NCBI RefSeq assembly: GCF_036632915.2
Contig: NZ_CP155552.1
Coordinates: 2,666,001 to 2,730,000, forward strand
DNA: 64,000 nt
Source: Faecalibacterium taiwanense
GTDB lineage: Bacteria; Bacillota; Clostridia; Oscillospirales; Ruminococcaceae
Direction of reading: 5' to 3'
Both the position numbers and the translations under genes were made by a program. Shown piece by piece: positions 9,186 to 52,792 of the stretch (position 1 is its first letter; the number at the start of each line of letters is the position of its first letter). The notes beneath the pieces are model-generated. The model saw only the letters and a program-made list of their open reading frames with translations, searched no databases and had not been told where the DNA came from.

Positions 9186-9193
9186 GGTATGCC

Positions 9194-9748: not shown

Positions 9749-9778
9749 AATCACCCTGCGGCACGGGAGGTGATGGCA

Positions 9779-10778: not shown

Positions 10779-10805
10779 AACAAAGATGCGTTTACAAAAG
10801 GATAA

Positions 10806-11186
<381 letters not shown>

Positions 11187-36170: not shown

Positions 36171-38219
36171 TCATTCCTTGGCTGAGGGCAGACCTTCGTA
36201 AAACTTCCTTAGTTCGTCCAGACTGCTTGTACGTTTCTTGATAGGCAGGGAGTCCCATGTGATGTCATGATAGCGTTCTGGCGGCTCGTCCCGCAGTCTT
36301 CGGTCGATGATGCAGACAATGCCGGTGTCTGTGAAATTACGGATCAATCGCCCGATGCCCTGCTTGAGCTTGATAATCATTTCGGGAACACGAACATCCA
36401 TCAGGGCATCCTTAGCAACGGAACACTTATACTCGATAATTGGATCGGGGACAGGAAACGGAAGCCGGAAAATGATGACATTGGAAAGGCTTTTTCCTTC
36501 AATGCTGATACCTTCCCAATATGCACCCGTCCCCAGAAGCACGGAGTTCGTATCTTCCTTAAACTCATTCAGCACCTTGTCCTGCGACGATCCCGGCTGC
36601 TGCATCAAGATTTTGTACGGAAGATTTTTCTCACTGAGAATGGAGTAGACCTCTTCCATGTCGGTCTTTGCCGTAAACAGCACGAGTGCCTTTCCGTTGG
36701 AAATGCTCAGGATCTCAAGCAGTCGCTCCACACCCTTTTCAATGAAGGCTTCATGTTCTCTGGTCGGGTGCGGGAGATCGTCGCAATAGTAGATCATGGC
36801 GTGTTCATCGTATGGATATGGGGAAGGCTTTGGCTCGGATAAGCAGCCGCGGTCACCAGCGGGAAAGCCGGTATTGCTGATAAAGTAAGAATACTGTTCT
36901 TCCAGAGACCCGCTCGTGGCGTTCGTCAGCGTGGCAGAGGTCAAGATGGTTCTTTCATCACCATTGAAGTATAGGCGGCTCACAATTTCTTTTGTGTTTT
37001 TAGGGCAATAGACGAGTTCCGTGTTGCTGCCGTGCTGCTCAATCCAGATCAGCATATCGTCTATCTGGTCAAGAAGCTCTGAAAGGGACTCGCTGACGGC
37101 ATCCAGATCATCAGAGGCAGCAAAGGAACGGTTGTTTCTGAAATCCATGCTGGAATAAATCTGAATGCTGGACGAAAGGTTGTGTATGGCGGCGTTCATC
37201 TCGGTAAGCAGTTCAATCGCACTGCCATTGTTGTCGAAGAAAAAGCGGTCAGCGTAGCGCATATTCTGCTCTGCCTCGTTGATCTGCTTTTGGACTTGTG
37301 CTTTCAGGCAGTTATAGAAGGCGATGATTGCGCTCTCTGCCTCTCGCTTTTCACCTGACACACTGCTCTGGTCAAAGGATCGCAGCTCATAGAATGCGTT
37401 CTTAATCATTCCAAAGAGCATACCTTGCCCGAAACGCTCCGTTGTGGCACTCCGCACCTTATCATCCAAGTTGTGTGCTTCATCCACGACAAGCAGATCA
37501 GCGGCGGCGTTAATCAGCCCTTCCTGACCGCGCCGGAGTTTCATGAGATGCTGGGTTAAAAAATCCTGATTGCACAGTACCACTCCATCCGTAAACTTTA
37601 ATGCTGCGCGCACTTTGTAATACTTGCACTTCTTTTCACAGGAGCCACAATTCTTCATGCTGAACCGCTGCACGTTTACCTTGTCCCAGACTCCTTGCGG
37701 CAAAACCTCCGGGAAATCCTTGCGTTCCTCATACCCTTGCTTGATTCCTTCTTTGATCGCGTCCGGTGGGTCTGCTTTCGGGTCACACATATACTCATCT
37801 GCGCGTTTGTTGCAGAGATAATGGGTCTGTCCTTTTGCGAGGATAACATCTCTGTTCAGCCCAAGAAGGGGCATTACCGCGTGGACATCGCGCCAGAGCT
37901 GTTCTTGAAGCGCAATGGTCGAGGTTGCGATGATAACCGGCTTGTTCATGCGTTTGCTGTACAGCAGCACCGGCACAAGATAGCCAAAGGACTTTCCAAT
38001 GCCCACGCCAGCTTCAATCGCAAAATGCTGATCGTTTATGAGGGCGTCCACAATCTCAAAGGACATATCCTGCTGTCCCTCACGCATTTCCAAACCATGC
38101 TGCGGGGCTTCATCCCAAAAGAAGGTGCTGACTTGCTCACTCATGGAGTACAGCTCTGCTTTTCTGCGCTTTTTCCGTTCCTCCGATGTATTGAATCCAA
38201 AATAGAATCTGTTGTCCAT
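36171..38219 (-). CDS. DinG/XPD-family ATP-dependent helicase
   Basis: 682 aa from ATG 38219, seven bases past GGGAGG; an ATG two codons earlier is too close to the ribosome site. Walker A is EAGVGIGKSFGYLVP (near 70). Motif Ia is VIIATSTIALQEQLW and the DEAH box is VVDEAHNLDD (near 243). A four-cysteine cluster, with CNKRADEYMC and CGSCEKKCKYY, could hold the 4Fe-4S centre of DinG/XPD enzymes. KQGIGRLIRNFTDTGIV is motif VI. It unwinds DNA 5'-3'. DinG-type helicases occur in plasmid-borne CRISPR type IV and other defence loci. Here it follows a type I RM operon and a NYN gene. Confidence 0.88.
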   Translation of the reverse strand: MDNRFYFGFNTSEERKKRRKAELYSMSEQVSTFFWDEAPQHGLEMREGQQDMSFEIVDALINDQHFAIEAGVGIGKSFGYLVPVLLYSKRMNKPVIIATSTIALQEQLWRDVHAVMPLLGLNRDVILAKGQTHYLCNKRADEYMCDPKADPPDAIKEGIKQGYEERKDFPEVLPQGVWDKVNVQRFSMKNCGSCEKKCKYYKVRAALKFTDGVVLCNQDFLTQHLMKLRRGQEGLINAAADLLVVDEAHNLDDKVRSATTERFGQGMLFGMIKNAFYELRSFDQSSVSGEKREAESAIIAFYNCLKAQVQKQINEAEQNMRYADRFFFDNNGSAIELLTEMNAAIHNLSSSIQIYSSMDFRNNRSFAASDDLDAVSESLSELLDQIDDMLIWIEQHGSNTELVYCPKNTKEIVSRLYFNGDERTILTSATLTNATSGSLEEQYSYFISNTGFPAGDRGCLSEPKPSPYPYDEHAMIYYCDDLPHPTREHEAFIEKGVERLLEILSISNGKALVLFTAKTDMEEVYSILSEKNLPYKILMQQPGSSQDKVLNEFKEDTNSVLLGTGAYWEGISIEGKSLSNVIIFRLPFPVPDPIIEYKCSVAKDALMDVRVPEMIIKLKQGIGRLIRNFTDTGIVCIIDRRLRDEPPERYHDITWDSLPIKKRTSSLDELRKFYEGLPSAKE

Positions 38220-38248
38220 CCACATTCCTCCCGGAATAGAAACCTATG

Positions 38249-39640
38249 CTATCCGCGTTTCAGTTCAATGCTGACGTTTCCGTTCTCGTCGATGGTCAGC
38301 GTCATGTGTCTGATGTGCTTCTCATAGAACTGCCGCCGCTCTGCGGGAGACATTTCGATCCTCGTGTTTCGCAGAGCAGCGTCAAACATATCGTTGACGT
38401 TCAGGTGAACGGAGTTGTCAATCCAGCGGTACATCTCCTTGAATAGTGCGTTTTTCTTGATGTCCTCGCTGTTGCCAGAGTAGAAGTCATCCAGATAGCA
38501 GTAGAATATCCCGGATTCTGCGAGTGCCGCCTTCATATCCGGTCCGCATTTTTCCCGCTCAATCATGACAAGGAATCTGGCGTCCGGCAAGGAAGAGATA
38601 AGCCCCCAGTAGTCGGAATCGCTTGAGACGATGACGAAGGAATCCACTTGCTTCTGGTAGTGTTCCTGACAGGCTCTTGCGGTGAGCTTGATGTCTACCA
38701 GTGATTTGTTCTGCTTGATCCGCTCAATCATGATATGCTCAACGGGGATGCGGGTGTAGTTTTCAAGAATCCGCCATGCCGTAGCGGTATGTACGTCATC
38801 AAAGAGAATGATCGCCGTAATTTTCTGCATGACCTCATAATCAAGATTTTTGAGCGTGGCACACAGCTTGTACGGGTCGGAGTTTTCGCAGTCCACCACC
38901 AATACGGTCTTCTCGCTGTCATCAATGAAGTCGTAGATATTGTTTTTTACAAAAGCCCCTGCATCAGAGACTTTACTGTATTCCGTGAAGGCGTCGCAAT
39001 GCCATTGATAAAGCAGGGTAGCAAACTTCTTATCATTATAGAGGACATTACCCTCGTCCATCGGTACCCAGTTGATATACATTTGATAGGGGTAGTAGGA
39101 GAGACTTGCGTAATAAATATCGGCAGCATCTTTCGTTCCGTCCTCTGTCAAGCCGTTTGGCATAATGAACAGCTCTTTTATGTACGTCCAGTTAATCCAG
39201 ATTGGAAAGAGGCTTTTGCAGTTGTTGATGCGGTCTGAAATCAGCCGGTTGATCTCGATAATGTGGTGGCAGAGCTTTGTACTCGACTTTTTGATAAAGC
39301 TGATTCCGTCATTTGAAAGCTGCTGCATACTGGACATTGGAAGGATCTCAGGCATCGAAAGAAGCCCACGGTATTCCATCCGTATGATGTCATTTATTTT
39401 CCGGTAATTGCGCTCAATGGCGGTGCGGATGATACATAGATTACGAATGATACGGGCATTTTTATCCTGTTCAAGCCGGTTGTATATCTCTATCTTCGGC
39501 GGCTCGTGTTCATTTTGGAAAATACGAAGCGGGACGCCGATCAGATATGCTACCTTTGACACAAGCTCATAGGTGCTGTCTTTATAAGCAATCTGCTGTC
39601 CGGCATATTCGACGCCATTCAACATGACTGAATTGCCCAT
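38249..39640 (-). CDS. NYN-domain (PIN-like) putative ribonuclease
   Basis: 463 aa, ATG 39640 with AAAGGAGTAG upstream. The N-terminal about 230 residues are unassigned and helical. From about residue 240 a NYN domain is evident: VLVVDCENSDPYKLCATLKN with acidic metal ligand, ITAIILFDDVHTA, HIMIERIKQNKSLVDIKLTA and FVIVSSDSDYWGLI. These acidic positions are the catalytic set of PIN/NYN nucleases. A short C-terminal domain ends TIDENGNVSIELKRG. It lies between hsdR and the DinG-like gene, so it may be an RNA- or DNA-cutting effector of the same locus. Confidence 0.8.
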   Translation of the reverse strand: MGNSVMLNGVEYAGQQIAYKDSTYELVSKVAYLIGVPLRIFQNEHEPPKIEIYNRLEQDKNARIIRNLCIIRTAIERNYRKINDIIRMEYRGLLSMPEILPMSSMQQLSNDGISFIKKSSTKLCHHIIEINRLISDRINNCKSLFPIWINWTYIKELFIMPNGLTEDGTKDAADIYYASLSYYPYQMYINWVPMDEGNVLYNDKKFATLLYQWHCDAFTEYSKVSDAGAFVKNNIYDFIDDSEKTVLVVDCENSDPYKLCATLKNLDYEVMQKITAIILFDDVHTATAWRILENYTRIPVEHIMIERIKQNKSLVDIKLTARACQEHYQKQVDSFVIVSSDSDYWGLISSLPDARFLVMIEREKCGPDMKAALAESGIFYCYLDDFYSGNSEDIKKNALFKEMYRWIDNSVHLNVNDMFDAALRNTRIEMSPAERRQFYEKHIRHMTLTIDENGNVSIELKRG

Positions 39641-39667
39641 GATCTACTCCTTTCGATGGAACGTGGG

Positions 39668-42600
39668 TTATTGAGCGTACTTTTTGAAGTTTTCAGCTTG
39701 TTCCAGAACCTCCTTGTAGACATCATCAATGGTTACGGGGGATAGTCAAATTCATCCAGTAGCAGTATGAGGTCAACTTGCAGATTTGCCTTAATGTCAT
39801 CACGGGTAGACCAGTCGGTGTATTTAGCTTTGTCATCGACAATAATCTTAATCCGCTTTGACAATTCAATCATCTTATCGTCCGGGTACTCGAACTCATA
39901 CTTCTTGGCAACCGCCTTGAGAATGTCATAAAAGGCTTTTTCCTCGTAGTCAATTCCCATGCCCTTGAAGGAGTCTTTTTCCTTTTTGAGTTCTTCAAGG
40001 AGCTTCGCAAGCTGCTCCGCCACATCGTCAAGGACTTCATTAGCAAAAGCCTCATCACGACGGCGATTGTTGTACTCATCAACAACCCGCTTGAGGCGGT
40101 CTGAGAACTCCATGCCCATAATGCGGTTGACCTTTTTATACTCATCAATCGCCTGAGAGAGAAGCCGCTGCAATACCTTGATTTTAGTGTTCGGTAATTG
40201 GATCGCGTTGATCTTATCCAGATACTCGTCACTGAAAATATCAACAGAGATATGCTTTCCCGTTTCAAACAATTCCTCTATACCATCAGATTGAATTGCA
40301 CCTTCAAGAAGTTCACGGACGCGGGCATTCATTTGTGAAATGTCGGGGGCATCGCCCTTTGTGAGTTTGAAAAGAATAGAGCGCACAGCACAGTAGAAGT
40401 GCAGATAGTCCTTTTCTTTATCAGAGATAGCCTCACTTGAACTGCATAGGTTGAACGCTTGTTTCATGCGTTTGACTGCCGCCATAAAGCGAGTTTCCAA
40501 ATCTTCCGTGAGCTGTACATACTCAACAGCCCGATTGAGGCAAGCAAGCTGCTCTTTCGGTGAGCCGTTGAAGTAATCCGTGCTATTGAAGTTGTGGAAC
40601 ATCTGAGCCAAGACATCGAGCTGGTCTTTAACAATCGTGATAGACTGCTCGACGCCTTCAAACTCGTCGCTCTCAAAGTTGGTGTATTTCTTGAGGGCGA
40701 GATTCATGTTTTTCTTAATGCCGATGTAGTCCACGATCAAGCCCTTGTCCTTGCCGGTATAGACGCGGTTGACGCGGGAAATCGTCTGGATAAGGCTGTG
40801 CTGCTGGATGGGCTTGTCGATGTAGATTGTGTCGAGTGCCGGTACGTCGAAGCCGGTAAGCCACATATCAACAACGATGGCAATTTTGAAGTTTGATTTA
40901 ACGTTCTTAAACTGACGGTCAAACTCCTTGCGATCATCTTTCGTTCCCAGCATTTCATAAAGCTCAGGCTCATCATCTTTATTTCGCGTCATGATGAGCT
41001 TGATCTTCTCGATGGGTTTGAGTTCCTTTTTCTCTTTTTCCGTCAGTTGAACCCCGTCAGGGCAAACCTTTTTCTCTGCCCATTCCGGTCTCATTCCAAC
41101 TATAATCTGATAAAAAGCGTATGCAATCTTGCGATTAGAGCAGACAAACATTGCTTTTCCTGCAACGGTAGCTCCTTCGGCAACGCGGGTCTCATAGTGG
41201 TTAATGAAGTCCTCCGCAACTGCGTGAAGTCGGTCAGGATCACCGATGATCGCATCAATATGAGCAACCGCCTTCTGGCTTTCCTCAATCTGATGCTCAT
41301 TTGCACCTTCAACAGCACAGCGGTCATAATAATCTTCAATTTCCCGAACCTTTGCCTGATCAAGAGTGACCCGTGCAGCGCGTCCGTCGTAGACAAGGTT
41401 GACTGTGATACCGTCTTTGACCGCCTCTGTCATTGTGTAGGCATCGACAACCGGACCGAAGACTTCAATCGTGCCATCTACGGGCGTGCCGGTGAAACCG
41501 ACATAGGTAGCATTGGGGAGAGAATCGTGTAGGTACTTTGCGAATCCATAGCTTCGCTCTACACCTTCGGCAGTGACCTTGACTTTCTGATCGAGGTTTA
41601 TCTGACTACGGTGTGCTTCATCGGATATGCAGATCACATTCGCTCTATCCGTCAGAAGCTCCAAGTCCTCGGTGAACTTTTGGATGGTGGTCATGTACAC
41701 CCCACCGCTTGCCCTGCCTTGAAGTTCCTGACGCAGCTTTTCGCGGGAATCAATGCTCACAACGGTTTCGTCACCAATGTACTTCTTGGATGCTACAAAC
41801 TGCTTTGAGAGCTGGTCATCCAAATCCGTTCGGTCGGTAATAATCAGGATTGTAGGGCTATGGAAGAAGGTACTCTTCATAAGCATTCTTGTGAGGAAGA
41901 GCATAGTATAGCTTTTTCCGCAGCCTGTCGCGCCGAAGTATGTGCCGCCCTTGCCGTCCCCTCCGGTCTGAGATGTGCCTTGATATTCTCAAACAGCTTG
42001 ACCGCAGCAAAATACTGAGGATAGCGGCAGACGATTTTGAGGTCTTTGTCCGAGCTATCAGGGAAATAGACAAAATCCTTGATGACTGCCAAAAGCCGTT
42101 CTTTGCGGAACAGTCCACTCACCATAGTTACAAGGGAATTGATGCCGTCCAATTCCTTATCGTCAGCTTCAATCTTTCTCCACGCATAGAAGAAGTCATA
42201 CGGGGAGAAGAAGGAACCGTATTTATTATTTGCACCATCGCTTATGACGATGAAGGCGTTATACTTGAAGAGTTCAGGAATATCACGGCGATAACGCACG
42301 GTAAGCTGAGTATAGGCGTCCATGATCGTTGTGTTTTCTTTGACTGCGCTCTTGAACTCAAGCACAACAACAGGAATGCCGTTGATGAAGACAATCCCGT
42401 CCGGTATGCGTAGCTGGTTGTTGATGCCTTCAATTTCAAATTGATTGACGATCTTGAACACGTTTTTCTCTGGCTCATCAAAGTCAATCAGCTCAATGTA
42501 AATGTCTTTCTTTGTGTGATCCTCACGGTTGAAGATGAAGCCGTCACAAATCATTTTGCAGACTGCTTTGTTTGCTTCGTAGATCGTACCGGAAATAGAC

Positions 42601-43112
42601 CTCAGGCGAAGGATGATGCTATCAACTTCGCTTGGGGTAAGTCCCTCTGAGGCATACCTGTTCAGGAGGTATTTCCGCAGATCGTCGATAAGCAGAACCT
42701 CAGAGCGTTCACGGTGGATCTGCTCACCATTCAAATAGATATACCCTTCATCTTGAAACAAATCCATGATGGACATTTCAAGAGAATGCTCATTGAAGTT
42801 CGCCATTATCATTTCCCCTAACTGCCTCTGCATTTCTGCTTCAAAGGCTTTTTCACTTTGCTGGAAGTCGTACTCCTGATACTTCAAACCCAGACGTGCC
42901 AGCATGAGTGTACCTTCCCAGTCATCTATATTTGAGTATTGAGTTGCGTGGTTTACATCTGTGAGAATACCAAGAATCAAGCCCGTACAATCAAGCGCAA
43001 AGTCTATCATTTCCTGAACGTCCGGATAGGAAATAGGGTAACGATTCGGAAGGTTTTCACTGTTCACGATGCGCTTCTCATCGTTGTGGGCATAGAGTTT
43101 GTTTCTCTGCAT
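39668..43112 (-). CDS. hsdR: HsdR, type I restriction endonuclease subunit, frameshifted twice as sequenced
   Basis: ATG 43112 (MQRNKLYAHNDEKRIVNSEN) opens the N-terminal nuclease domain (RIPDGIVFINGIPVVVLEFK is the D...ExK site). At the C-run 41958-41961 one base is missing; restored, GDGKGGTYFGATGCGKSYTM supplies Walker A. The next frame holds CISDEAHRSQ, the DEAH box, VGFTGTPVDG and the helicase C-domain (VDMWLTGFDVPALDTIYIDK, QTISRVNRVYTGK). A second missing base at 39737-39741 cuts off VTIDDVYKEVLEQAENF and the tail to 39668. The repaired protein is 1148 aa, normal for HsdR. It translocates DNA and cuts unmodified sites. Confidence 0.9.
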
Positions 43113-43638
43113 TCGGATGTTATCTCTCTTTTACTCAGTCCGTTGAACCGCTTCTGATATAGGTCTAAAAATTCTGGAAAAGTCAAATCCACCCGAACAG
43201 GAACATTGTCCGCATCAGGAATATCAAACGCGGCGAAGAGTTTTCTATCTGCCTCAACCCGATCCTTAAAAAGCATTCCTCTTGCGGCTTGAGTTGGTGC
43301 TGATATGGGATCGGGTAGAAAAAGGTTGTTCCGTCATGATCCACCGTCAAAGTTTCTCTGTACTTCGGGAAAAGGTCTTGATTTCCCTCGCATTTAACAA
43401 GGAGGGTTCCAATGGACACGACACCATTCGAGGTATCATACAGTTTGGCAATCTCCATGAAACAGGCTTTCATCAGAGCATCATAGACTGTATGGTAGAA
43501 TGCTGGCGAAACCTTCATCTCTTCGGCATAATTACGTTGGTTCTTCCGATACTGCTGCATGATCAGGTAGTAGGCTTTTGCGTCGAAAGCTCCCTGGTGA
43601 AGTTCTTCGGCAATTCTGATCAATGTTTCCTTGTCCAT
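43064..43638 (-). CDS. AbiU2-like HEPN protein, frameshifted as sequenced
   Basis: ATG 43638 is preceded by GGGAGGG. The first part (MDKETLIRIAEELHQGAFDA, then AFYHTVYDALMKACFMEIAK and LYDTSNGVVSIGTLL) resembles AbiU2-type HEPN proteins. One base is missing in the A-run 43268-43272 (plus strand). With it the protein continues FKDRVEADRKLFAAFDIPDA to 43064, 191 aa in total, overlapping the hsdR start. Many HEPN proteins are RNases or toxins in abortive infection; I do not see a clear R-x4-6-H site here, so the activity is uncertain. It sits between the hsdS cassette and hsdR. Confidence 0.65.
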
Positions 43639-43660
43639 TTTCGTCCCTCCCTTCGTAGGA

Positions 43661-43679
43661 AAATGATAATTTAGCGGCT
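43661..43679 (+). repeat. Inversion site a, outer edge of the hsdS C-half cassette
   Basis: AAATGATAATTTAGCGGCT in forward orientation. It is an exact 19-base inverted copy of 44280-44298. Read in the cassette's frame it encodes NDNLAA, the joint between the two hsdS halves. Confidence 0.85.
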
Positions 43680-43682
43680 CAA

Positions 43683-44288
43683 ATGCGAGCATATTTCAAG
43701 GAATATACAGCAAATAACGCTTCAATAACAGGCAAACTCAAAGATTACTCAGTTATGCAGTACGGTTACACTGAAACAGCTACCACCGAACCAGTTGGAC
43801 CGAAGTTCTTGCGTATAACAGACATCGCTCAAAATTATATTGATTGGAATGGTGTACCATATTGTCCAATCAGCGAGGAAAATCATGAAAAATATGTTCT
43901 CTCGGAAGGCGATGTCGTTGTAGCTCGGACAGGAGCAACCGTGGGGTATGCTAAAATGGTCGGCAGAAATATTCCCGATTCTGTATTTGCATCGTTCCTT
44001 GTTAGAATAAGACCCATTGATGACGAATACAGATACTACTTTGGACTTGCAATTACATCTGCCGAGTTCCTTAATTTTGTTCAGACGAACGCTGGGGGTT
44101 CAGCTCAACCGCAAGCAAATCCTCCGCTTTTAGGGGAATTTGAGCTTTCTATTCCTAATAAGCAAAGTCTGCCAGAGTTCAACACAAAGATTTCCTCGTT
44201 TCTCGGAGTTATCGAGTCTAATGAAACGGAAATATCAAAGCTCCACGAGGTCAAAGATACAATGGTGAAGATGTTATCAAGCCGCTAA
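43683..44288 (+). CDS. Silent hsdS C-terminal half (second target-recognition domain), inverted
   Basis: The frame is open from the repeat at 43661 (NDNLAAQMRAYFKEYTANNA) and ends VKMLSSR at 44288. It has no start or promoter of its own. It carries a whole HsdS target-recognition domain (KFLRITDIAQNYIDWNGVPY, LSEGDVVVARTGATVGYAKM, GGSAQPQANPPLLGEFELSI) and the following conserved helix (LPEFNTKISSFLGVIESNET). It lies opposite to all surrounding genes. Inverting 43661-44298 would fuse it in frame behind the minus-strand hsdS N-half at 44277-44801. Confidence 0.85.
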   Translation: MRAYFKEYTANNASITGKLKDYSVMQYGYTETATTEPVGPKFLRITDIAQNYIDWNGVPYCPISEENHEKYVLSEGDVVVARTGATVGYAKMVGRNIPDSVFASFLVRIRPIDDEYRYYFGLAITSAEFLNFVQTNAGGSAQPQANPPLLGEFELSIPNKQSLPEFNTKISSFLGVIESNETEISKLHEVKDTMVKMLSSR

Positions 44289-44299
44289 ATTATCATTTA
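44275..44299 (-). repeat. Inversion site b, joint of hsdS N-half and silent C-half
   Basis: A 25-base element shared, inverted, with 45886-45910; its inner 19 bases match 43661-43679 inverted. On the minus strand it encodes NDNLAA plus a stop, closing the hsdS N-half. On the plus strand it encodes SSR plus a stop, closing the silent C-half. Confidence 0.85.
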
Positions 44300-44801
44300 T
44301 CTTCCGCTTGAGTTCAATCCGATCCGTAATCGTATTGTATGCCTTTACAATGCTGCGTTGCTTCTCGATAGAGGGGACAGGCAGTTCAACCTTGCACATT
44401 TCATCCCAGTCCATAATTTCCCGGACGCTGCCGTGAGACTTAAAACGTGCATAACGATCAAACTCCGGTCTGCTGAACCAGAGCATTAGGTATTCGGGCA
44501 GTAGCTCGTTTTCATCTTTCACTTCAAAAACGGTATAGATATTGCTGACAAGCCCCTCATCATAATCCGTTAGAAGAGCAATACCAATTTTGTCTCCACG
44601 CCGAGAAGTATCTGGAATGTAGGTAAACTGCCCCCGTTTGACTACCTTGTATTTCGTAAAGTCGGTACCAACCGTGTTTGCAATAGAGGGAATGAACATC
44701 TTTTGGACGGAAACACCTAAAAGGTTTTCCTCTTTTCCGTCTGTGTTCCTGACATCGACTTGGCGAATGAAGTCTCCAAGCAGCCTATATCCTTCTTTCA
44801 T
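44277..44801 (-). CDS. hsdS: hsdS N-terminal half (first target-recognition domain only)
   Basis: 174 aa, ATG 44801 (MKEGYRLLGDFIRQVDVRNT). One target-recognition domain (SIANTVGTDFTKYKVVKRGQ, ALLTDYDEGLVSNIYTVFEV, LPEYLMLWFSRPEFDRYARF) is followed by the conserved helix (EKQRSIVKAYNTITDRIELK). It ends at RKINDNLAA exactly in inversion site b. It is colinear with the first half of the complete HsdS at 45897-47053 (YKLISKGLFACNP, MMWFRRPEFDRECWF). It is half of a specificity subunit until the C-half is flipped; half-size HsdS proteins can sometimes work as dimers. Confidence 0.85.
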   Translation of the reverse strand: MKEGYRLLGDFIRQVDVRNTDGKEENLLGVSVQKMFIPSIANTVGTDFTKYKVVKRGQFTYIPDTSRRGDKIGIALLTDYDEGLVSNIYTVFEVKDENELLPEYLMLWFSRPEFDRYARFKSHGSVREIMDWDEMCKVELPVPSIEKQRSIVKAYNTITDRIELKRKINDNLAA

Positions 44802-44810
44802 TGTGACACC

Positions 44811-45794
44811 TCACCCTATGTATTTTCTGTGTGCCAGCTTGACGTTTTGCTGTTTGACCATAGCATAGTGCATGGTCGTGTCGATCTTCTGATGCCCTAA
44901 GAGCTGCTGGACTTGCTCTATGGGCATTCCTTTATCTATGGCTGATGTTGCCAATGTTCTTCGGAACTTATGTGGGTGGACACGAGGCAAATCCAGTCGT
45001 CGTCCCAACTCCCGCAATCGTCTTTCAATACCGCCGATCTGTAACCGCCCATGTGGGGATGCCAGAGAAACAAACAAAGCGGGATTGCTGTCACTACGGC
45101 TCTCCAAATAGTTTTGAAGGTGAATCTTCGTCCTGGCATCGAAGTAAACGATTCTTTCCTTGCTGCCTTTTCCGAACACTACGCATTCGCGCTCGTTGAA
45201 ATTGATGTCATCTCTGTTGAGTGCGCTCATTTCTCCGACACGCATTCCAGAGGATGCCAACAGATCAATCATGGCGAGATCACGGATAGAAGAGCAATTA
45301 TCTCGCATGATCTCCAAAGTCTCGTCTGAATAAGTCTCTTTGATTACCTTCGCCGTTTTGACCTTATGTATGCGGCGAACCGGACTTTTCACGATATGAT
45401 CTTCATCCTCCATCCACGAGAAGTAGCTGGATAGAATCCTGCGAATGTTATCAATCGTGACCTTGCTGGATTTTCTTTGCGTTTGGTAGTCCGTGAGATA
45501 CCTGCGCAAGTCTTCTGTGGTGATTTCCTGCGCCAATTTTCCAATGCCGGACAGCATTGCAAAGATGGTCTGGCGATAGTAGTTCAGCGTTTTTTCCGAG
45601 CAACCCTCAATTCGCTTGGCTGTGATAAACAAGGAAACCATGTCTACGCTTTCACTTACATCAGCAGCTTTGTCTCGATGGACTGTTACGCCGGTCAGTG
45701 CCTTCTCAAGTACAGCTTTAAGCTGCTTGAGCTGTGCATTGTTCAGATACGGAAGCATCTGCCGCTGCACTTCTTGAATTAGATGTTCTTTCAT
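44811..45794 (-). CDS. Tyrosine recombinase, probable hsdS invertase
   Basis: 327 aa. The N-terminal SAM-like domain has DMVSLFITAKRIEGCSEKTL and YYRQTIFAMLSGIGK. The catalytic domain has SGMRVGEMSALNRDDI (Arg), VFGKGSKERIVYFDARTK (Lys region), HPHKFRRTLATSAIDKGMP (His-x2-Arg), QLLGHQKIDTTMHYAMV (His and the Tyr nucleophile). All catalytic residues are present. It lies inside the type I RM operon between a full and a partial hsdS, next to inverted repeats at their joints. This is the arrangement of known hsdS-shuffling recombinases. ICE integrase is a less likely role. Confidence 0.88.
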   Translation of the reverse strand: MKEHLIQEVQRQMLPYLNNAQLKQLKAVLEKALTGVTVHRDKAADVSESVDMVSLFITAKRIEGCSEKTLNYYRQTIFAMLSGIGKLAQEITTEDLRRYLTDYQTQRKSSKVTIDNIRRILSSYFSWMEDEDHIVKSPVRRIHKVKTAKVIKETYSDETLEIMRDNCSSIRDLAMIDLLASSGMRVGEMSALNRDDINFNERECVVFGKGSKERIVYFDARTKIHLQNYLESRSDSNPALFVSLASPHGRLQIGGIERRLRELGRRLDLPRVHPHKFRRTLATSAIDKGMPIEQVQQLLGHQKIDTTMHYAMVKQQNVKLAHRKYIG

Positions 45795-45854
45795 TGTCGT
45801 TTCTCCTTTGTTTTAACTCAGAGAACGACAATCAGTGGCAGTTCCTTGTGGTAA

Positions 45855-45885
45855 AACTCTCGCCACTGGTGAGAGTTGTGGACTG
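45855..45885 (-). terminator. Weak terminator or attenuator between hsdS and recombinase
   Basis: AACTCTC (45855-45861) and GAGAGTT (45871-45877) form a 7-base stem. On the minus strand it is followed by TTTTACC. It could reduce read-through from hsdM-hsdS into the recombinase and downstream genes. Confidence 0.4.
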
Positions 45886-45910
45886 TAAATGATAATTTAG
45901 CGGCTTGATA
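45886..45910 (+). repeat. Inversion site c, 3' end of the complete hsdS
   Basis: TAAATGATAATTTAGCGGC plus TTGATA, identical over 25 bases to the complement of site b at 44275-44299. On the minus strand it encodes the last residues SSR and the stop of hsdS. Confidence 0.85.
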
Positions 45911-47053
45911 GCTGTGACAGAAGCAGTTGCTGCATGACATTTAGCCGCATAATTTCCTCCGTATTCCGGGTAACAGATTCGTATGACCCACGAGCTTTAA
46001 CCTCAAAATCTTGTATTTCACTTGCGGATGGAACTGGAATCGCAAAAGACTCCATTTCCTGCTTGTTAATTGCCTCTCTGGTCGAACCGGACTGCGCTAT
46101 TCCCATAAGTTTAGCTTTGTTTTCGGCAGAACAAAGTGTTGTCATGATGTAATAACTCATTGGCACAGCCAAATTGGGGCGCAATATCATGACGTGCTGA
46201 TTTACGCGAGCAGGAGAACATCCACCGGCACGATGCAGCATCGCGTAACTGATACACCTGTGATATTAAATAGGACATCATTTTGCTCGACGACCACATT
46301 TGAAAGTTGATCCGCCTGTTCGTCAGAAATATGAGCAAGATCATCATAGGAAAAGGCAAAATCAAAAATGTTTGTACTTCGGATGAGTGAAATGCCAGAC
46401 TCTCGATAGGCTGTTTTTCCACCTTTGGGCGTTGCACCACTTCCGATTTTCGAGCAAAGTTGTTTTAGCGGAACAGTCGGATATATTTTGCCTCCATCAA
46501 TAAACATCTTGCGATAGATTGCGTTGACGGTCGCAACCAAATTATCATTTATCTCCTTCTTCATAGCAATTCGCCTTGTGATTGCTCGATAGGATTCTAC
46601 TACATCAAGCTGCCGCTCGTAGGGAGGAACCGGGAGCTGAATGCGGCAAAGATCATCCCATGAGATGCCGCCACGAACACTGCCATCCGTCATGAACCAG
46701 CATTCACGGTCAAACTCCGGTCTACGAAACCACATCATCAAATACTCTTCATTTAAGACATCGCGGTCAATAATCTCAAACATGAAATACGCCGGAGAAA
46801 CTATTGCGGCGTTGTCTTTCTCATAGAGCGCAATCGGAAGACGTTCATCGCGTCCAACGTGCATTGGATTACAGGCAAATAGCCCCTTGCTGATCAGTTT
46901 ATACCGACTCAAATCTGTGCCAATTACATTTGCGACGGAAGGCATAAACTCTTTGTCGATGCTTATGCCAAGAACAGTGCTGGTGACTTCCTCGGAGTTT
47001 CGATAATCAACAAGCCGAATGTGTTTACCAAGAGGTTCATAATTCGATTTCAT
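45897..47053 (-). CDS. hsdS: HsdS, type I specificity subunit (complete copy), frameshifted as sequenced
   Basis: It starts at ATG 47053 (MKSNYEPLGKHIRLVDYRNS), overlapping the hsdM end by 17 bases. The first recognition domain and helix run to KKEINDNLVATVNAIYRKMF, the joint at site d. The second domain starts PTVPLKQLCSKIGSGATPKG. At 46213-46214 one base is missing; restored, VDVLPARVNQHVMILRPNLA continues to the stop at 45897, for 385 aa. HsdS binds two half-sites and so sets the sequence specificity of the whole complex. Its second half is a swap candidate for the silent cassette. Confidence 0.88.
46539..46554 (-). repeat. Inversion site d, central joint of the complete hsdS
   Basis: Sixteen bases (AAATTATCATTTATCT, plus strand) identical to 44287-44302. 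On the minus strand it encodes the INDNL joint between the two hsdS halves, followed by V instead of A. Confidence 0.75.
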
Positions 47054-48611
47054 AGCCCAGCTCCTTAAACACGGTCAACAGGTCTGCCTTTGACTTTTCT
47101 TCTGCAATGAGCAGATCGCGCAGTTCACTTTGCAGCGCCTTCATTTTCGTATCAAAGTCGATGTTCTCATCGCGGTTTACAAACTCAATGTAACGGCTCG
47201 GAACAAGGGTAAAGCCCTTTTCAGCAACCTCATCGAAGGATGCGCTGTAACAAAATTCAGGCACATTCTGATAAGTTTCTTCATAGCCTTCCTGCTGCCA
47301 TGCGTGATAGACGCCCGTGACTTTTGCACGGTCTTCTTCTGTCAGTTCAATATACTTCTTTTCATAAGGGCTTCCCATTTGCCGCAAGTCCATGAAAAGG
47401 ATCTCGCGCTCACGGTTACGGAAGCGTTTTACTTCACCGTTTTCTTCAACCACACGAGCCTTTTTATTCTTGTTCAGAATCCAAAGCGTAACGCTGATGT
47501 CCGTGGTGTAGAAGAGGTTTCGGGGAAGGATAATGATTGCCTCGACGAGATTGTTCTCTATAAGCTGACGGCGGATTTTTAACTCTGTACCATCGTCAGA
47601 TAGTGCGCCGTTTGCAAGCAGGAAACCGGCAACACCGTTCTGAGAGAGCTTTGAAACAATGTTCAGAATCCAGCCATAGTTTGCGTTACTCGTGGGCGGA
47701 ACTTCATAGCCGTCCCAGCGCGGATCATCAATCAGCTCATTATCACCACGCCATTCTTTCTGATTAAAAGGCGGGTTTGCCATAATGTAATCTGCCTTGA
47801 GGTCCTTGTGCTGGTCATTGGTGAATGTGTTCGCTGCCATTTCTCCGAGGTTTGCAGAGATGCCGCGAATAGCCAGATTCATTTTGCACAGCTTGTACGT
47901 CGTGTTTGTATATTCCTGACCATAGATAGAGACCTTCTTCTTGTTGCCGTGATGTGCCTCCACGAACTTCATTGACTGCACGAACATACCGCCAGAACCG
48001 CAACAAGGGTCGTACAGAATGCCATCATACGGTTCAATCATTTCTGCAATCAAATTGACAATACACTTCGGCGTATAGAACTCGCCCTTGCCCTTGCCTT
48101 CCGCAAGAGCAAACTTGCTCAGGAAGTATTCGTAGACCCGCCCGATAATGTCATTCTCTTTATCGCCGGTGTTGATCTTATCAATCTCGTCCAGCAGTGA
48201 TGCCAGCTTTGCTGTGTCGATGTGAAGACGTGAGTAGTAGTTGTCCGGCAGTGCGCCTTTCAGTGCGGGATTCGCTTTCTCAATCGTATAGAGGGCGGTG
48301 TCGATTTTCAGCGCAATGTCATCCTGTTTCGCATTCTCCATGATGAAAGACCAACGGCTGATCTCAGGCAGGAAGAATACATTATCCTTCGTATAGAAGG
48401 CAACATTGTCAACAAACTTCTCACCGTATTTTTCAGAAATAGCTTTCCTTTGTGCCTCAAACTTATCGCTGGCAAACTTCAAAAAGAAGAGACTGAGAAC
48501 GACGTGTTTATATTCTGCTGGCTCGACAGAACCACGGAGTTTATCTGCGGACTTCCACAGAGCTTCCTCCATAGAAATCTCCTTCTTCGGTGCCGATGCG
48601 GCTCGTGCCAT
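47037..48611 (-). CDS. hsdM: HsdM, type I N6-adenine methyltransferase subunit
   Basis: 524 aa, intact. The N-terminal helical domain (LWKSADKLRGSVEPAEYKHV, VLSLFFLKFASDKFEAQR) is followed by the methyltransferase domain: GEFYTPKCIVNLIAEMIEPY, the SAM motif YDPCCGSGGMFVQS (about 205) and the catalytic MANPPFNQKEW (about 277). It methylates adenine at sites chosen by HsdS and is needed for restriction too. It begins the RM operon and overlaps hsdS by 17 bases, so the two are translated together. Confidence 0.95.
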   Translation of the reverse strand: MARAASAPKKEISMEEALWKSADKLRGSVEPAEYKHVVLSLFFLKFASDKFEAQRKAISEKYGEKFVDNVAFYTKDNVFFLPEISRWSFIMENAKQDDIALKIDTALYTIEKANPALKGALPDNYYSRLHIDTAKLASLLDEIDKINTGDKENDIIGRVYEYFLSKFALAEGKGKGEFYTPKCIVNLIAEMIEPYDGILYDPCCGSGGMFVQSMKFVEAHHGNKKKVSIYGQEYTNTTYKLCKMNLAIRGISANLGEMAANTFTNDQHKDLKADYIMANPPFNQKEWRGDNELIDDPRWDGYEVPPTSNANYGWILNIVSKLSQNGVAGFLLANGALSDDGTELKIRRQLIENNLVEAIIILPRNLFYTTDISVTLWILNKNKKARVVEENGEVKRFRNREREILFMDLRQMGSPYEKKYIELTEEDRAKVTGVYHAWQQEGYEETYQNVPEFCYSASFDEVAEKGFTLVPSRYIEFVNRDENIDFDTKMKALQSELRDLLIAEEKSKADLLTVFKELGYEIEL

Positions 48612-48676
48612 ATCAAAATCCTCCCTGTGTATTTATCTAACCTATTTTACAAAAAGAGCTGTACGAAAAACCGGAC

Positions 48677-48898
48677 TCAGTTCTTGTCCGTTCGCACAGC
48701 CTCACATATATCTCCGATGTCACAGTTCAAGTAATCACAAATGCGCAGCAAAATAGAGAGGGACACTTCTTCCCCCTTATTCAGTTTTGTCCATGTTCCG
48801 GCAGACAGCCCTACTTCATGTCGTAGAGAAGCCTTCTTTATGTCGCGTTCCAGAAGAAGCATCCATAGTTTCTTATAGCTTATGCGCACGGCAACCAT
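48677..48898 (-). CDS. Small Xre-family regulator upstream of hsdM
   Basis: About 73 aa. Start choice is uncertain: ATG 48916 and ATG 48898 both lack a good ribosome site, while a GTG nine bases further in has AAAGGATGG in front. The helix-turn-helix (RISYKKLWMLLLERDIKKAS, LRHEVGLSAGTWTKLNKGEE) and SILLRICDYLNCDIGDICE are typical of the short YozG-like Cro/CI regulators. It lies 65 bases upstream of hsdM in the same direction, and may control the RM operon, as C proteins do. Confidence 0.75.
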   Translation of the reverse strand: MVAVRISYKKLWMLLLERDIKKASLRHEVGLSAGTWTKLNKGEEVSLSILLRICDYLNCDIGDICEAVRTDKN

Positions 48899-48916
48899 CC
48901 TTTCGCTTGCTTGCAT

Positions 48917-49065
48917 TCAACATCGCTTATAATATTATACTGGATTTCGTTCTCAAAAGCAATCCGTTGATGCAGAAATTAAAGAAAAAGTTTCAACTTC
49001 TCGAACCTTCTCTTAAGGATGCAGGGCATCTCCGGTCAACAGGAGATGCCCTGCTTTTGAAAGGA
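48917..49065. other. Intergenic region with stem-loop downstream of relaxase
   Basis: It contains an AT-rich stretch (TATAATATTATACTGG, 48930-48945) that can serve as the -10 region for the small Xre gene. It also holds a perfect 13-base stem GCAGGGCATCTCC/GGAGATGCCCTGC at 49021-49054 followed by TTTT on the plus strand. The stem lies just past the relaxase stop. Confidence 0.5.
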
Positions 49066-50430
49066 CTATTCGCGTTGTGTGCTGCGCAGATGATCACGGT
49101 CATGGTCAACAGAAGGAGCGAGAAACGTATCAACATTAGACTTGATCGTCTCTATTTGCTTTACTTCTTTTTTGAGCTTCACACGTTCATCATAGAGCCG
49201 CTGTTGCTCTTCAAGAAGTCGCTGCTGTTCCGCTTGCAGTGTCTTCAAGCTCGGCAGTTTTTCATCGCCCTGCATGGCAAGTAATGTGCTTCTCGCTGCC
49301 TCAAAGATCACAAGCTCGGCTTCGTGCTTTGCTTTGAAACCCGGCTTATCTTTTGCCTTCTGGAATGCGTCATATACGGGCTTGAGCCGCTGGTAGTTGG
49401 AGATGTTTTTGATAAGCGGCTGGACTTCCCGCAGACGTGCTTCAACGCCTTTCAGTTCCTTGCCGGTACGGTCATAGGAGCTGTGAACATCCTCGACCTT
49501 CTTCTCAAGATCGGCGTATTGAAGCAAGTTGTTTTCCGTGAGATAGTTGAGTGTCCGTGCCGCTTCCTTGAGGATAGTGAGCTTTGCTTTATGCTCGTAA
49601 CCCTTGCTGTCGATGAGCCTGATACGCGCCTGAATATCTCCGATAAGAGAGATGCCCTTCGGCGTGGCTTGTCTCTGACTTCTTCGGGGCGTCCGTCCGG
49701 CAATACGCTCCTTGATGCGTTCCTCGGTGTAGTTCTCTCCGATGGTCTTAGAACGGGTAAACCGCTCCTGACCTTCAGCGCGGAAGGAGATGTATTTGCC
49801 GGTCTTAATTTCATAACCGGCTTCCTGCATAAGCCGCAGAAAATCATCGTAGTCCTTGGCTGTGATGACAAGCCGGTCGATGGTTTGCTTGAGCTTTTGC
49901 TTCCAGCTCGTGCCGCGTTTGGCTTCGGTGTACTCCTTGTAGCCCATGCCCTTGTTCTGAGAGGGAGGGATAACAGAGAGACCGTTTTCCTTACAGAGCC
50001 GGTCGCTGACCTCACGCATATCATAGTAAATCCGCTTGTAGCTCTTGTATGCGTGGTAGTCCATGAAGTCAACCGCATTGAAAATCAGGTGGTTATGAAC
50101 ATGATCCTTGTCAATGTGAGTGGTCAGCACATACTCATATTTTCCACCGAGGATTTCATCTGCAAACTGCTTGCCGATCTCGTGGGCAAGCTCCGGTGTG
50201 ACCTCTCCAATTTCAAAGGACTGGATCACATGACGGGCTATGATCCTGACCGGATTCATCCCTTTTTGCTCGGCTATTTTCCGCGTCCACTCAAATTCCC
50301 GCGCTGCGGTCTCGCTGGCACAGCCGTAGGACGAGACCAGCAGCTTCTCGTCGGTCTTTTCGGGATTCAGAATGTACGCGATTGCCTTGCTCAAAGTTCC
50401 TCGGATTGCTTTGATTTTAGTAACTGCCAT
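49066..50430 (-). CDS. MobP-type relaxase of ICE B
   Basis: 454 aa from ATG 50430. The N-terminal relaxase domain has VTKIKAIRGTLSKAIAYILN, a YGCASETAAREF segment, and the metal-binding HIDKDHVHNHLIFNAV (about 105-120, HxDxxHxHxH). SYKRIYYDMREVSDRLCKEN follows. A long C-terminal coiled coil (KLPSLKTLQAEQQRLLEEQQ, RLYDERVKLKKEVKQIE) completes it. It nicks one strand at oriT and pilots it into the recipient. It overlaps the MobC-like gene upstream by 40 bases. It is encoded opposite to the channel genes, about 16 kb away from them. Confidence 0.93.
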   Translation of the reverse strand: MAVTKIKAIRGTLSKAIAYILNPEKTDEKLLVSSYGCASETAAREFEWTRKIAEQKGMNPVRIIARHVIQSFEIGEVTPELAHEIGKQFADEILGGKYEYVLTTHIDKDHVHNHLIFNAVDFMDYHAYKSYKRIYYDMREVSDRLCKENGLSVIPPSQNKGMGYKEYTEAKRGTSWKQKLKQTIDRLVITAKDYDDFLRLMQEAGYEIKTGKYISFRAEGQERFTRSKTIGENYTEERIKERIAGRTPRRSQRQATPKGISLIGDIQARIRLIDSKGYEHKAKLTILKEAARTLNYLTENNLLQYADLEKKVEDVHSSYDRTGKELKGVEARLREVQPLIKNISNYQRLKPVYDAFQKAKDKPGFKAKHEAELVIFEAARSTLLAMQGDEKLPSLKTLQAEQQRLLEEQQRLYDERVKLKKEVKQIETIKSNVDTFLAPSVDHDRDHLRSTQRE

Positions 50431-50720
50431 ACTGCATCCATCTTTTCTTTCAGCTCGTCAATATCGTCCTGGTAGAATCGTCCCGTCGAGTTGATCCTGC
50501 GGCAGACGGTATTGATGTTCACACCGATCTTGTTGATTTCGGCGGCGAGCTTTTTCTGCTCTGTGTAGTCTACGACAATGATGTAGCCGTCAATCAGCAT
50601 CTTCCTTGCATACGCACCGAAGTTCTCCGTGCCGATCATCTCCATCTTCTTTGCAATCGTCCGTTCTTCCTGTGGTGTCAGCCAAATCTTCTTCTGAATG
50701 TCTCGTGTTCTTCGTACCAT
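50391..50720 (-). CDS. mobC: MobC-like relaxosome accessory protein
   Basis: 109 aa from ATG 50720 with GGAGGG seven bases before it. RRTRDIQKKIWLTPQEERTI, NFGAYARKMLIDGYIIVVD and LAAEINKIGVNINTVCRRIN are the MobC/ribbon-helix-helix relaxosome pattern. Such proteins bind oriT and help the relaxase open the strands. The inverted repeats in the adjacent region 50768-50843 are its likely target. Confidence 0.88.
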   Translation of the reverse strand: MVRRTRDIQKKIWLTPQEERTIAKKMEMIGTENFGAYARKMLIDGYIIVVDYTEQKKLAAEINKIGVNINTVCRRINSTGRFYQDDIDELKEKMDAVWQLLKSKQSEEL

Positions 50721-50767
50721 GCTGCGCCCTCCGTCGTAAAGATTAGAAGGGTTTGGGACTATCCCAA

Positions 50768-50843
50768 CAAGCAAAAATCTGATGTTAAGGGCAGGGTCTC
50801 CTTAACTGATTTTTCTCCGGTGGGTACTCACCGGATTTGCTTG
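50768..50843. other. Putative oriT with nested inverted repeats
   Basis: Three nested or adjacent repeats lie upstream of mobC. CAAGCAAA (50768-50775) pairs with TTTGCTTG (50836-50843). GTTAAGG (50784-50790) pairs with CCTTAAC (50800-50806), flanked by AAAAATC/GATTTTT. CCGGTG (50817-50822) pairs with CACCGG (50829-50834). The gap before the relaxosome genes is the usual place of oriT. The nick site itself cannot be read off. Confidence 0.55.
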
Positions 50844-50956
50844 CTAATCTCCCAAAATCGTATTCTACGAAGATTACTCCGTGAAATGTCCCTTCACTTT
50901 ACAACGGACACAATAAGAGCGTTTGTTGAGTACCGGATTTCAAAAAAGTCAAAAAA

Positions 50957-51616
50957 TCATTGGATTTCCCATGTAAAAGCCACTGTGTCTGTCACATCAA
51001 TATCATCTGGCTCAATCTCAGGTGCGGCGCACTTGCTCATCGCCATGAGAGGCTGAATGCAGTCTTCGACCTCATAGCTCGTTCTGGAATACACATTGAG
51101 TTCGCCCCAGTTGTAGTCGATGTTGAGCAACTGCACAAGCGTACTGCCTGATGCTTTGCAAAGAATCTCCGCCTTTGCTCTGGCGTTCTCCGTCGCATTG
51201 ATCAGCAGCTCTTCGCTGACTCTTGCCGGGTTTTTCACGGTGAACGCAATGCTGAGTTCTGGTTGCGCCCCACAATCCGCAATCGCAGAAATGACATTTG
51301 CAAGCTGCTTGCTGTCAAAGTCAAAGGCAAGTTTCAAGCGATAGCTGCAAGCATATCCGGCAAACTCTCGCTTGTAATTACCTTGCCGATCCTTGACATT
51401 CTCGTACCTTGTCTGGACATCAAAGCTCGTGGTTTTCAGGTCTTCCTTACGATACCCAACGCGGACAGCGACACCTTGCAGCTTTTCGATTCTCTCGGCA
51501 GCTTCCGACATTGCAAGGTCATAGTTTTTTGAATTTGCTTCAATGTTCAGAGATAGGATGATGTAATCCGGTCTTGCGGAGACATTTCCTGTCCCTTTTA
51601 CGGTGATTGTTCTCAT
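50957..51616 (-). CDS. SIMPL-domain protein (DUF541)
   Basis: 219 aa from ATG 51616. The SIMPL pattern is clear: ITVKGTGNVSARPDYIILSL, NIEANSKNYDLAMSEAAERI, GYRKEDLKTTSFDVQTRYEN, GYACSYRLKLAFDFDSKQLA and the C-terminal TENARAKAEILCKASG. No signal peptide is present, unlike most SIMPL proteins (OmpG-like or BP26), so it is probably cytoplasmic. It lies immediately downstream of the vWA gene with shared bases. The role on an ICE is unknown. Confidence 0.82.
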   Translation of the reverse strand: MRTITVKGTGNVSARPDYIILSLNIEANSKNYDLAMSEAAERIEKLQGVAVRVGYRKEDLKTTSFDVQTRYENVKDRQGNYKREFAGYACSYRLKLAFDFDSKQLANVISAIADCGAQPELSIAFTVKNPARVSEELLINATENARAKAEILCKASGSTLVQLLNIDYNWGELNVYSRTSYEVEDCIQPLMAMSKCAAPEIEPDDIDVTDTVAFTWEIQ

Positions 51617-52271
51617 TACTTTCTCCCGTCCTTTCTGGAATTGAAGTCCTCATCAATACGCTTTTTCCAATTCGTACCCAGTGGTACGCTGCATCGGACA
51701 GCAGAAACCGCTTCGCTCAGAACTTCATAGTTGAGCTGCGTTCCCTCATGGTCAGAGTGGTAGTTGACCGCTCGGTCTGCACCAATTCCGAAATGCCTTG
51801 CCGTCTCAACTGCGTCGATGTTTGCACCGAGGAACAAAAACTCCCAGCCATACTTTTCCTTCTGACGCTCAATCATTTTCTTGACCTTCTCGCTGTCATA
51901 ACGGCGGCTTGCATTCTCCATGCCGTCCGTTGTGATGACGAACAGAGTATGTTCAGGGACATCTTCATTTCTTGCGTACTTGTGGACATTTCCAATGTGA
52001 TGAATCGCTCCGCCGATAGCATCCAGAAGCGCGGTGCAGCCGCGAACGGAATAGTCATTGTCGGTCATCGGCTCGACCTTTTGAACCGGTACACGGTCAT
52101 GAATAACCTCGCTCACGTTGTCAAAGAGGACGGTAGAGATCAATGCCTCGCCATTCTCCTTTTTTGCTTTTCAATCATGGAGTTGAAGCCTCCGATGGTG
52201 TCTGCTTCCAGCCCGCTCATAGAGCCGCTGCGATCAAGGATGAATACGATCTCCGTCAAGTTCTTTCTCAT
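51616..52271 (-). CDS. von Willebrand factor A domain protein, frameshifted as sequenced
   Basis: ATG 52271 opens MRKNLTEIVFILDRSGSMSG, with the metal-binding DxSxS of a vWA domain. The T-run 52160-52165 (plus strand) is one base short. Restored, EALISTVLFDNVSEVIHDRV follows, then TALLDAIGGAIHHIG (the conserved Thr) and TLFVITTDGMENASRRYDSE (the conserved Asp), to 51616 and 218 aa. It resembles the stand-alone, cytoplasmic vWA proteins associated with tellurium-resistance or stress genes. Partner proteins are not evident except the adjacent SIMPL gene. Confidence 0.82.
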
Positions 52272-52373
52272 GTTCAGTACCTCCGTATATAAAAAATATG
52301 ACTGCTTGGCGTCTCACCTTACAGTCATATTGTACTTCGGTATTCACTTCGTTTGGTCGCATGGCAAGCGACA

Positions 52374-52792
52374 TTATTCTAAGGACGAGAATATCTCTCC
52401 GTCAATGATTAGAACGTCATCCATCGGAATCTTCGAGCCGTCCTGCATAGTGATCCGCCGCTCAAAATCATCGACTTTTTTGACCGTACCGACTGCTGAT
52501 ACATATTTGCCGCCAGCCTTCCGCTCATCAGGCTGGAAGTAAGTAATGGTGACTTCCGGTTTGTCATCGAGGGCATCCATGAGAAGCTGATACTTCATGT
52601 CCAATGCAGTCAGTGCTTCCTCGTCAAGCTCAATCCTTTCATCGGTCAGACGCCCGGTTTCTTTGATTGCAGCATCGTAGCCGGTGAGGGCAGCAAAGGG
52701 GCGAACTGCGCCGCCCGATCTGACATTGGCATCTGTGGTCGCGTCTTGGAGACGTGGTGAGGGAGGTCGATTATTTCTCTGTATTTTTCCAT
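52374..52792 (-). CDS. YolD-like protein, frameshifted as sequenced
   Basis: ATG 52792 (MEKYREIIDLPHHVSKTRPQ, then MPMSDRAAQFAPF) is the typical YolD opening. One base is missing in the A-run 52695-52697 (plus strand). Restored, AALTGYDAAIKETGRLTDER continues through PEVTITYFQPDERKAGGKYV to 52374, 139 aa. YolD-like genes commonly pair with Y-family polymerases of the UvrX/UmuC type. Such a polymerase lies two genes upstream here. Confidence 0.83.

Follow-up and report, generated by a model that had tools for sequence, protein, structure and literature searches.

A mobile type I restriction-modification locus of Faecalibacterium taiwanense whose hsdS halves are probably shuffled by a tyrosine recombinase at short inverted repeats

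The window analysed here, 64,000 nucleotides of the Faecalibacterium taiwanense contig NZ_CP155552.1 (positions 2,666,001 to 2,730,000), contains a type I restriction-modification (R-M) locus in which hsdM, an hsdS gene, a tyrosine recombinase and a second hsdS all lie within one locus. With a probability of about 0.9, it represents a mobile, recombinase-shuffled type I R-M locus of the kind already published as SsuCC20p (PMC10790761). On the minus strand the gene order is hsdM, hsdS copy 1, tyrosine recombinase (integrase), the N-terminal half (N-half) of hsdS copy 2, a reversed C-terminal half (C-half) read on the plus strand, a gene for an AbiU2-like HEPN protein, and hsdR. The genes and the four repeats associated with the hsdS halves, designated sites a to d, have the following window coordinates.

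47037..48611, minus strand: hsdM, methyltransferase subunit of a type I system, 524 amino acids (N6_Mtase 9.3e-100, HsdM_N 1.2e-20)
46202..47053, minus strand: hsdS copy 1, consisting of N-half N1, site d and the beginning of C-half C1 (from the list of open reading frames, ORFs; frame lost near 46.2 kb)
46536..46549, minus strand: site d (P1) at the N1/C1 joint, core TAAATGATAATTTG, 12/14 bases of the searched pattern
45897..46241, minus strand: remainder of C-half C1, terminating with SSR-stop within site c (from the ORF list)
45886..45910, plus strand: site c (P2), inverted relative to b and the same as b in 25/25 bp
44811..45794, minus strand: tyrosine recombinase, XerA/XerD-like, 327 amino acids (Phage_integrase 5.3e-33; XerA model 1.4e-70, above the model cut-off)
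44277..44801, minus strand: hsdS copy 2, N-half N2, at present ending in NDNLAA-stop (Methylase_S 1.2e-7)
44275..44299, minus strand: site b (P3), the same as c in 25/25 bp
43683..44288, plus strand: C-half C2, inverted (silent), ending with SSR-stop within site b (Methylase_S 8.9e-7)
43661..43679, plus strand: site a (P4) at the outer end of C2, core AAAATGATAATTTA, 19/19 bp common to a, b and c
43183..43692, minus strand: AbiU2-like HEPN gene, frame broken in this assembly (HEPN_AbiU2 matches there and in an ORF starting at 43112)
39733..43112, minus strand: hsdR, two ORFs in this assembly (HSDR_N, SWI2_SNF2, T1RH-like_C)

The sites follow one another as P1> P2< integrase P3> P4<, corresponding to d, c, b and a, and the same short inverted repeat flanks both C-halves. 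The first-pass annotation of this DNA, made from the letters and a list of ORFs, had placed these repeats at the joints and ends of the half-genes, and their coordinates and identities were recovered. With up to three mismatches allowed, the 25-mer has two matches in the window, against none in any of 100 shuffles, and the 19-mer has five matches in the 2.96-Mb genome: three are sites a, b and c, and the other two, each with one mismatch, lie in a second hsdS locus at 1.13 Mb. A control search with the reversed 19-mer pattern gave zero matches in the same genome. This second locus of the same family (G000:C1:1131494-1134876; L014, about 7483-10966) encodes an integrase 78% identical to that of the window, has the core AAACGATAATTTA, and carries both hsdS copies in the half-gene state (OFF/OFF in the terms used below).

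Related loci, designated here by L numbers, share the 14-bp core consensus TAAAY-NNNN-ATTTR. Strict matches to it, counted strand-wise in the 66 loci with at least three sites, number 359, against 5.2 expected by shuffling; the centre count allowed any centre, and near-palindromic sites were scored on each strand, in the shuffles as well as in the data. Only one centre (or its complement) is present in 57 of the 66 loci tested, and the centres differ between loci, at least eight being represented (GATA, CATC, AAGA, GACA, GAGA, GAAA, AACA and TGTA). The loose form AAAY-NNNN-ATTT adjoins open frames in 93 of the 114 loci examined, in some distant loci probably by chance. Fixed arms enclosing a variable, locally matching centre give the core the look of a recombinase site with its crossover region. 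At least two centres per locus occur in L054, L056, L062, L065, L070, L084 and L092, which belong mostly to Bacteroidota, suggesting separate recombination registers there.

The sites are also coding. Sites b and c read NDNLAA-stop in one direction and SSR-stop in the other, site a reads NDNLAAQ running into the silent C-half C2, and the joint at site d reads EINDNLVATVNA; in copy 2, N2 ends in NDNLAA-stop against the tail of reversed C2. The proposal that the repeat encodes the joint of the two halves in one direction and the end of the C-half in the other is correct as to the codes, but NDNLAA leads into a C-half at site a only, while at b and c it is a dead end followed by stops. In most relatives GCGGCT is part of the C-half end cap, not of the joint. 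When a joined HsdS was aligned with 18 relatives, NDNL was the sole run of adjacent invariant columns, at a mean column identity of 29%.

The compact dual coding that had been singled out for description is real but not peculiar to the locus. In a survey of 78 C-halves from 42 loci chosen for NDNL-type sites, the C-half stop lies 6 nucleotides before the core in 54, overlaps the core as in the window in 15, and has another offset in 3, with no core near the end in the remaining 6. At 65 of the 69 C-half ends with the core in a standard place (54 + 15), the stop codon coincides with a stop on the opposite strand. The base preceding the stop, which must be a pyrimidine for an opposite-strand stop to form, is a pyrimidine in 54/54 ends of the 6-nucleotide class; three of these end in TGA and carry no opposite-strand stop. 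The two-way stop is a family trait, and a dual coding unique to this locus was rejected; selection for the trait is unproved, because common descent could account for it.

The same element is present in the genome of another genus of the same family as that of the window (L162). Window positions 39457-44299 align to it with orientation kept (37 mismatches and 5 gaps in 4848), and positions 46539-52787, comprising N1, hsdM and the region beyond, align with 96.7% identity. Positions 44279-45910, with the integrase and N2, are inverted (11465 to 9834 in L162), with 4 mismatches in 1632. The L162 site at 9845 is an exact chimera of b and c, its left side matching the sequence left of c in 200/200 bases and its right side that right of b in 200/200; at the other junction, the left side corresponds to the left of b in 200/200 bases and the right side is a different C-half. 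The hsdS frame of L162 is open for 357 codons. As read from this alignment, the inversion is that between b and c, which was unnamed in the first-pass annotation, where the a-b pair was stressed; the a-b orientation is unchanged between the window and L162.

Other pairs of loci differ at the same repeats. L031 (Bacterium D16-76) and L032 (Neglectibacter sp. X58) have stretches in common that are 99.85-100% identical. One 675-bp C-half segment, with 0 mismatches and 1 gap between the two, is attached to N1 in one locus but lies in reverse at copy 2 of the other; their second C-halves differ. In L142, positions 3564-8126 consist of two 2274-bp units, each with an integrase and a joined hsdS, without any difference between them, forming an exact tandem duplication with the 14-bp core at its boundaries; re-insertion of a circle at a direct-repeat site would be expected to leave such a product. 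In L115 and L026, the same C-half occurs twice in opposite orientations (663 bp at 100% identity, and 633 bp with 1 mismatch, respectively). The flanks of the element recur in L016, L103 and L105 at 94.7-98% identity, and the similarity breaks off at site a in L016 and L105 (43682, three bases past the site) and at site d in L016 (46539) and L103 (46533). N1 of the window is 94% identical to N1 of L016, and N2, which is unjoined in the window, has 98.8% identity with an N-half that L016 carries joined to a C-half. C2 is 79% identical to a C-half that is part of a joined hsdS in L032, and in L103 the homologue of C1 is attached to the other N-half. In silico, the N2-C2 and N1-C2 joints are both open for 376 codons, which, with the b-c inversion in L162, bears out the suggestion that hsdS is shuffled at this locus, which has a tyrosine recombinase and two halves of each type, N and C.

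The residues R185, K209, H275, R278, H301 and Y310 of the window recombinase, which we take to be catalytic, are all kept in 35/35 aligned relatives; PADLOC assigned no family to the window integrase. In the mechanism proposed here, this recombinase would act at the four sites, with the centre of the 14-bp core as the probable crossover region. Each hsdS would be composed of one N-half cassette, which ends at NDNL, and one C-half cassette, flanked by a > site and a < site; exchange between sites would re-join N- and C-halves in frame. A reversed C-half would leave its N-half cut off at NDNLxx-stop, because the C-half end has stops on both strands. Judged by genome comparison, P2-P3 inversion (window versus L162) and a change in the position and orientation of a C-half (L031 versus L032) have taken place, and L142 carries the kind of product that direct-repeat exchange would yield. 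The integrase is presumably the agent, such exchange probably also occurs in this strain, and it would change methylation specificity. The normal moves appear to hold the two C-halves in opposite directions, one forward and the other reversed, and thereby to keep one complete hsdS.

The 114 loci examined comprise 47 with both copies classifiable and the integrase in the orientation of hsdM, 6 with the integrase inverted, 40 that are incomplete or of another layout, and 21 without a site. A copy was called ON when its layout was joined and no fewer than 100 codons were open, and the window was scored ON/OFF despite the frameshift in its joined copy. The 47 loci include 21 in the ON/OFF state, 23 OFF/ON, 3 OFF/OFF (L014, L101 and L143) and 0 ON/ON, so that exactly one joined hsdS is present in 44 and none in 3. 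The binomial p for this counting rule is 2.5e-10 on the assumption of independent loci, which these are not; after 14 near relatives, including the window and L103, had been removed by hand, one gene was present in 30 of 33 loci and none in 3. The integrases of 35 of the 47 loci were placed on a tree (12 were lost to a simple translation filter), on which the ON position of the ON/OFF states requires 11 changes against a shuffled mean of 12.0, and a value as low was obtained in 182 of 500 shuffles. The ON copy is therefore scattered over the tree, and switching has been frequent over evolution. Among the inverted-integrase loci (L018, L055, L058, L061, L097 and L162), one C-half is forward and one reversed in four of the five that are readable (L018, L058, L097 and L162); both are reversed in L061, and L055 is incomplete.

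One explanation of this rule, to which we give a little under an even chance, is that the integrase works mostly on the outer pair P1-P4 and on the inner pair P2-P3, and by direct-repeat excision and re-insertion, and does not use the short pairs around one C-half, so that the number of complete genes is conserved. A count of states agrees with it: outer inversion, inner inversion and cassette swap reach 8 states, each with one complete hsdS, that cover all four N/C combinations. The inner inversion (L162) and the direct-repeat product (L142) have been observed, and most of the readable inverted-integrase loci hold one C-half in each direction, although 4/5 is not significant. The difference between L031 and L032 fits two large inversions or other moves with replacement alike, the three OFF/OFF loci require some other move, and we know of no biochemical reason for sparing the 0.6-kb pairs, which counts against the explanation. 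The inverted-integrase form, which an uncoordinated route of two inversions would be expected to pass through, is found here with its sites present.

Free local flipping combined with selection is also credible, at odds somewhat further below even. Each C-half would flip independently at its own site pair, and cells left with two complete hsdS genes, or with none, would be lost by self-restriction or loss of function. Site pairs for such local flips exist, as do the three OFF/OFF loci and L061 with both C-halves reversed, and a count of states by local flips alone yields none, one or two complete hsdS genes. The a-b flip suggested in the first-pass annotation as completing copy 2 belongs to this class of move; its product, N2-C2, is open in silico, but the flip alone would give two joined genes, a state seen in 0/47 loci, for which free flipping offers no clear reason. 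The finding that several complete hsdS genes were on no long read in S. suis, in the part of the report available (PMC10790761), likewise suggests that such states are rare there.

The joined hsdS copy is not, as had been assumed, complete in this assembly. Copy 1 extends over 47053-45897 on the minus strand, is joined by layout as N1-site d-C1, and is split into the ORFs 46202-47053 and 45897-46241; starting at site d, the reading frame stays open through 115 codons out of about 220. That the locus once shuffled and is now a pseudogenised relic in this genome would account for the broken frames of hsdS copy 1, hsdR and AbiU2, which, if real, may mean that the system is decaying. This explanation is improbable in view of the nature of the breaks. 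In the comparison with L162 over 39457-44299, each of the 5 gaps is one base missing in the window, in or beside a homopolymer run, and because of this sequencing error appears likelier than decay as the cause, although it is not proved. A further 3 gaps relative to L162 lie at 52.1-52.7 kb in both directions, one being an extra base in the window, and the break in hsdS copy 1 falls outside the coverage of L162. The frames of the integrase, hsdM, N2 and C2 are open in the window, and intact versions of the broken genes exist in relatives: hsdR as an open frame of 1050 codons in L162 and an ORF of 1048 amino acids in L105, and AbiU2 as an ORF of 285 amino acids in L105 and in an open version in L162. 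Horizontal cassette replacement or homologous recombination in place of site-specific recombination, which would suit the occurrence of C-halves in different company across genomes and the conserved flanks that related loci have in common, is very unlikely, since the boundaries in L162 and L142 fall at repeats of 14-25 bp with unrelated sequence beyond, and 14-25 bp is short for homologous recombination.

Besides the broken frames, several observations weigh against a shuffled locus of the SsuCC20p kind. The last core base of site d and the first core base of site a differ from those of b and c, an additional centre occurs in 9 of the 66 loci (L054, L056, L062, L065, L070, L076, L084, L092 and L148), and 21 of the 114 loci examined have no site of the loose form. 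On the site-a side, the similarity to L103 ends already at 42819. L162 has a different C1 cassette and L031 and L032 differ in their second C-half; cassettes are therefore also replaced between genomes. Finally, 3 of the 47 loci have no joined hsdS, and the one-gene rule is therefore not absolute. With these points taken into account, the locus is still probably functional and of the SsuCC20p kind; it lies on an element that gut genera share, and recombination at the named repeats is strongly backed by comparison of sequences.

SsuCC20p (PMC10790761) comprises hsdM, hsdR, four target-recognition halves, two of which form one hsdS, and a recombinase in the locus, and lies in a prophage region; its repeats are two identical sets of 14-bp inverted repeats, TAAATCATCATTTA. 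In S. suis the shuffling depends on XerD, and each complete assembly contains one complete hsdS, by a recombination mechanism that the authors call unknown (PMC10790761). In the window, one hsdS copy is joined by layout, with its frame broken in this assembly. The window locus resembles SsuCC20p in having the same arms, two repeat sets around the C-halves, a recombinase in the locus and a mobile context, which places it among the known phase-variable type I systems with tyrosine recombinases that the first-pass annotation mentioned. SsuCC20p differs in being streptococcal and in its centre, CATC against GATA in the window; the S. suis locus L043 has an integrase 66% identical to that of the window and sites with the same arms and the centre CATC. 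An inverted recombinase with sites present occurs in L162, whereas none was observed in S. suis, and the five S. agalactiae strains that showed it had lost the repeats (PMC10790761). In the literature searched, as far as its content was available, no published report was found of the inverted-integrase state with sites present or of the one-gene rule outside streptococci.

The window locus probably also belongs to gut inverton group 145, to which it is likened by gene context and not by repeat motif. According to the published account (PMC11892184), the invertons of this group overlap restriction subunit S genes in Bacteroidota and Firmicutes_A, genes for a tyrosine recombinase, a relaxase and MobC are enriched nearby, and horizontal spread is suspected. 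The cod/ivr (SpnIII) locus of S. pneumoniae with PsrA/CreX is similar in its tyrosine recombinase, hsdS inversion and short repeat (15-bp in SpnIII), but it has three hsdS genes and three different repeat sets, compared with two hsdS copies and one repeat class found in the window (PMC7096588, PMC4948785). The tvr (SpnIV) locus of S. pneumoniae shares the recombinase-aided shuffling of hsdS segments (PMC6265443). The tvr type operates by direct repeats with excision and re-integration, whereas the sites of the window lie in both orientations and a direct-repeat product was noticed in L142 only.

It is tempting, with rather more doubt than belief, to regard these loci as a number-conserving shufflon spread across phyla, in which one recombinase family and four half-genes, through outer and inner inversions and circle exchange, would give four specificities and never two or no complete hsdS. 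If this were true, the two-way stop would make the idle N-half a clean half-subunit, which might itself pair up as a further specificity. The comparison defines a 14-bp site with an exchangeable centre and extends the one-gene pattern to many bacteria. It also provides a near-identical pair of elements differing by the inverted-integrase arrangement, as expected of a stepwise route, and the mechanism is thereby directly testable.

The same relaxase-bearing element occurs in different gut genera; in the window, the relaxase and a MobC/NikA-like gene lie upstream of hsdM. In L017, from a genome of the same species, the flanks of the element (window 39457-39654 and 48642-51885; 95-96%) enclose another R-M module, which looks like an exchange of the complete R-M cassette. 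The AbiU2-like HEPN gene sits between the silent hsdS half and hsdR and is a possible abortive-infection partner. Beyond hsdR, a DinG/Csf4-like helicase, an NYN-domain protein and a protein of 203 amino acids without a Pfam or PADLOC family are encoded at 36171-38225, 38249-39640 and 35485-36096; the helicase and the NYN-domain protein are also found on the related contig L105, and the three genes are possibly another defence unit. Near the relaxase genes, a Y-family DNA polymerase (impB/mucB/samB) and a SIMPL-domain protein are encoded (53547-55055 and 50957-51616).

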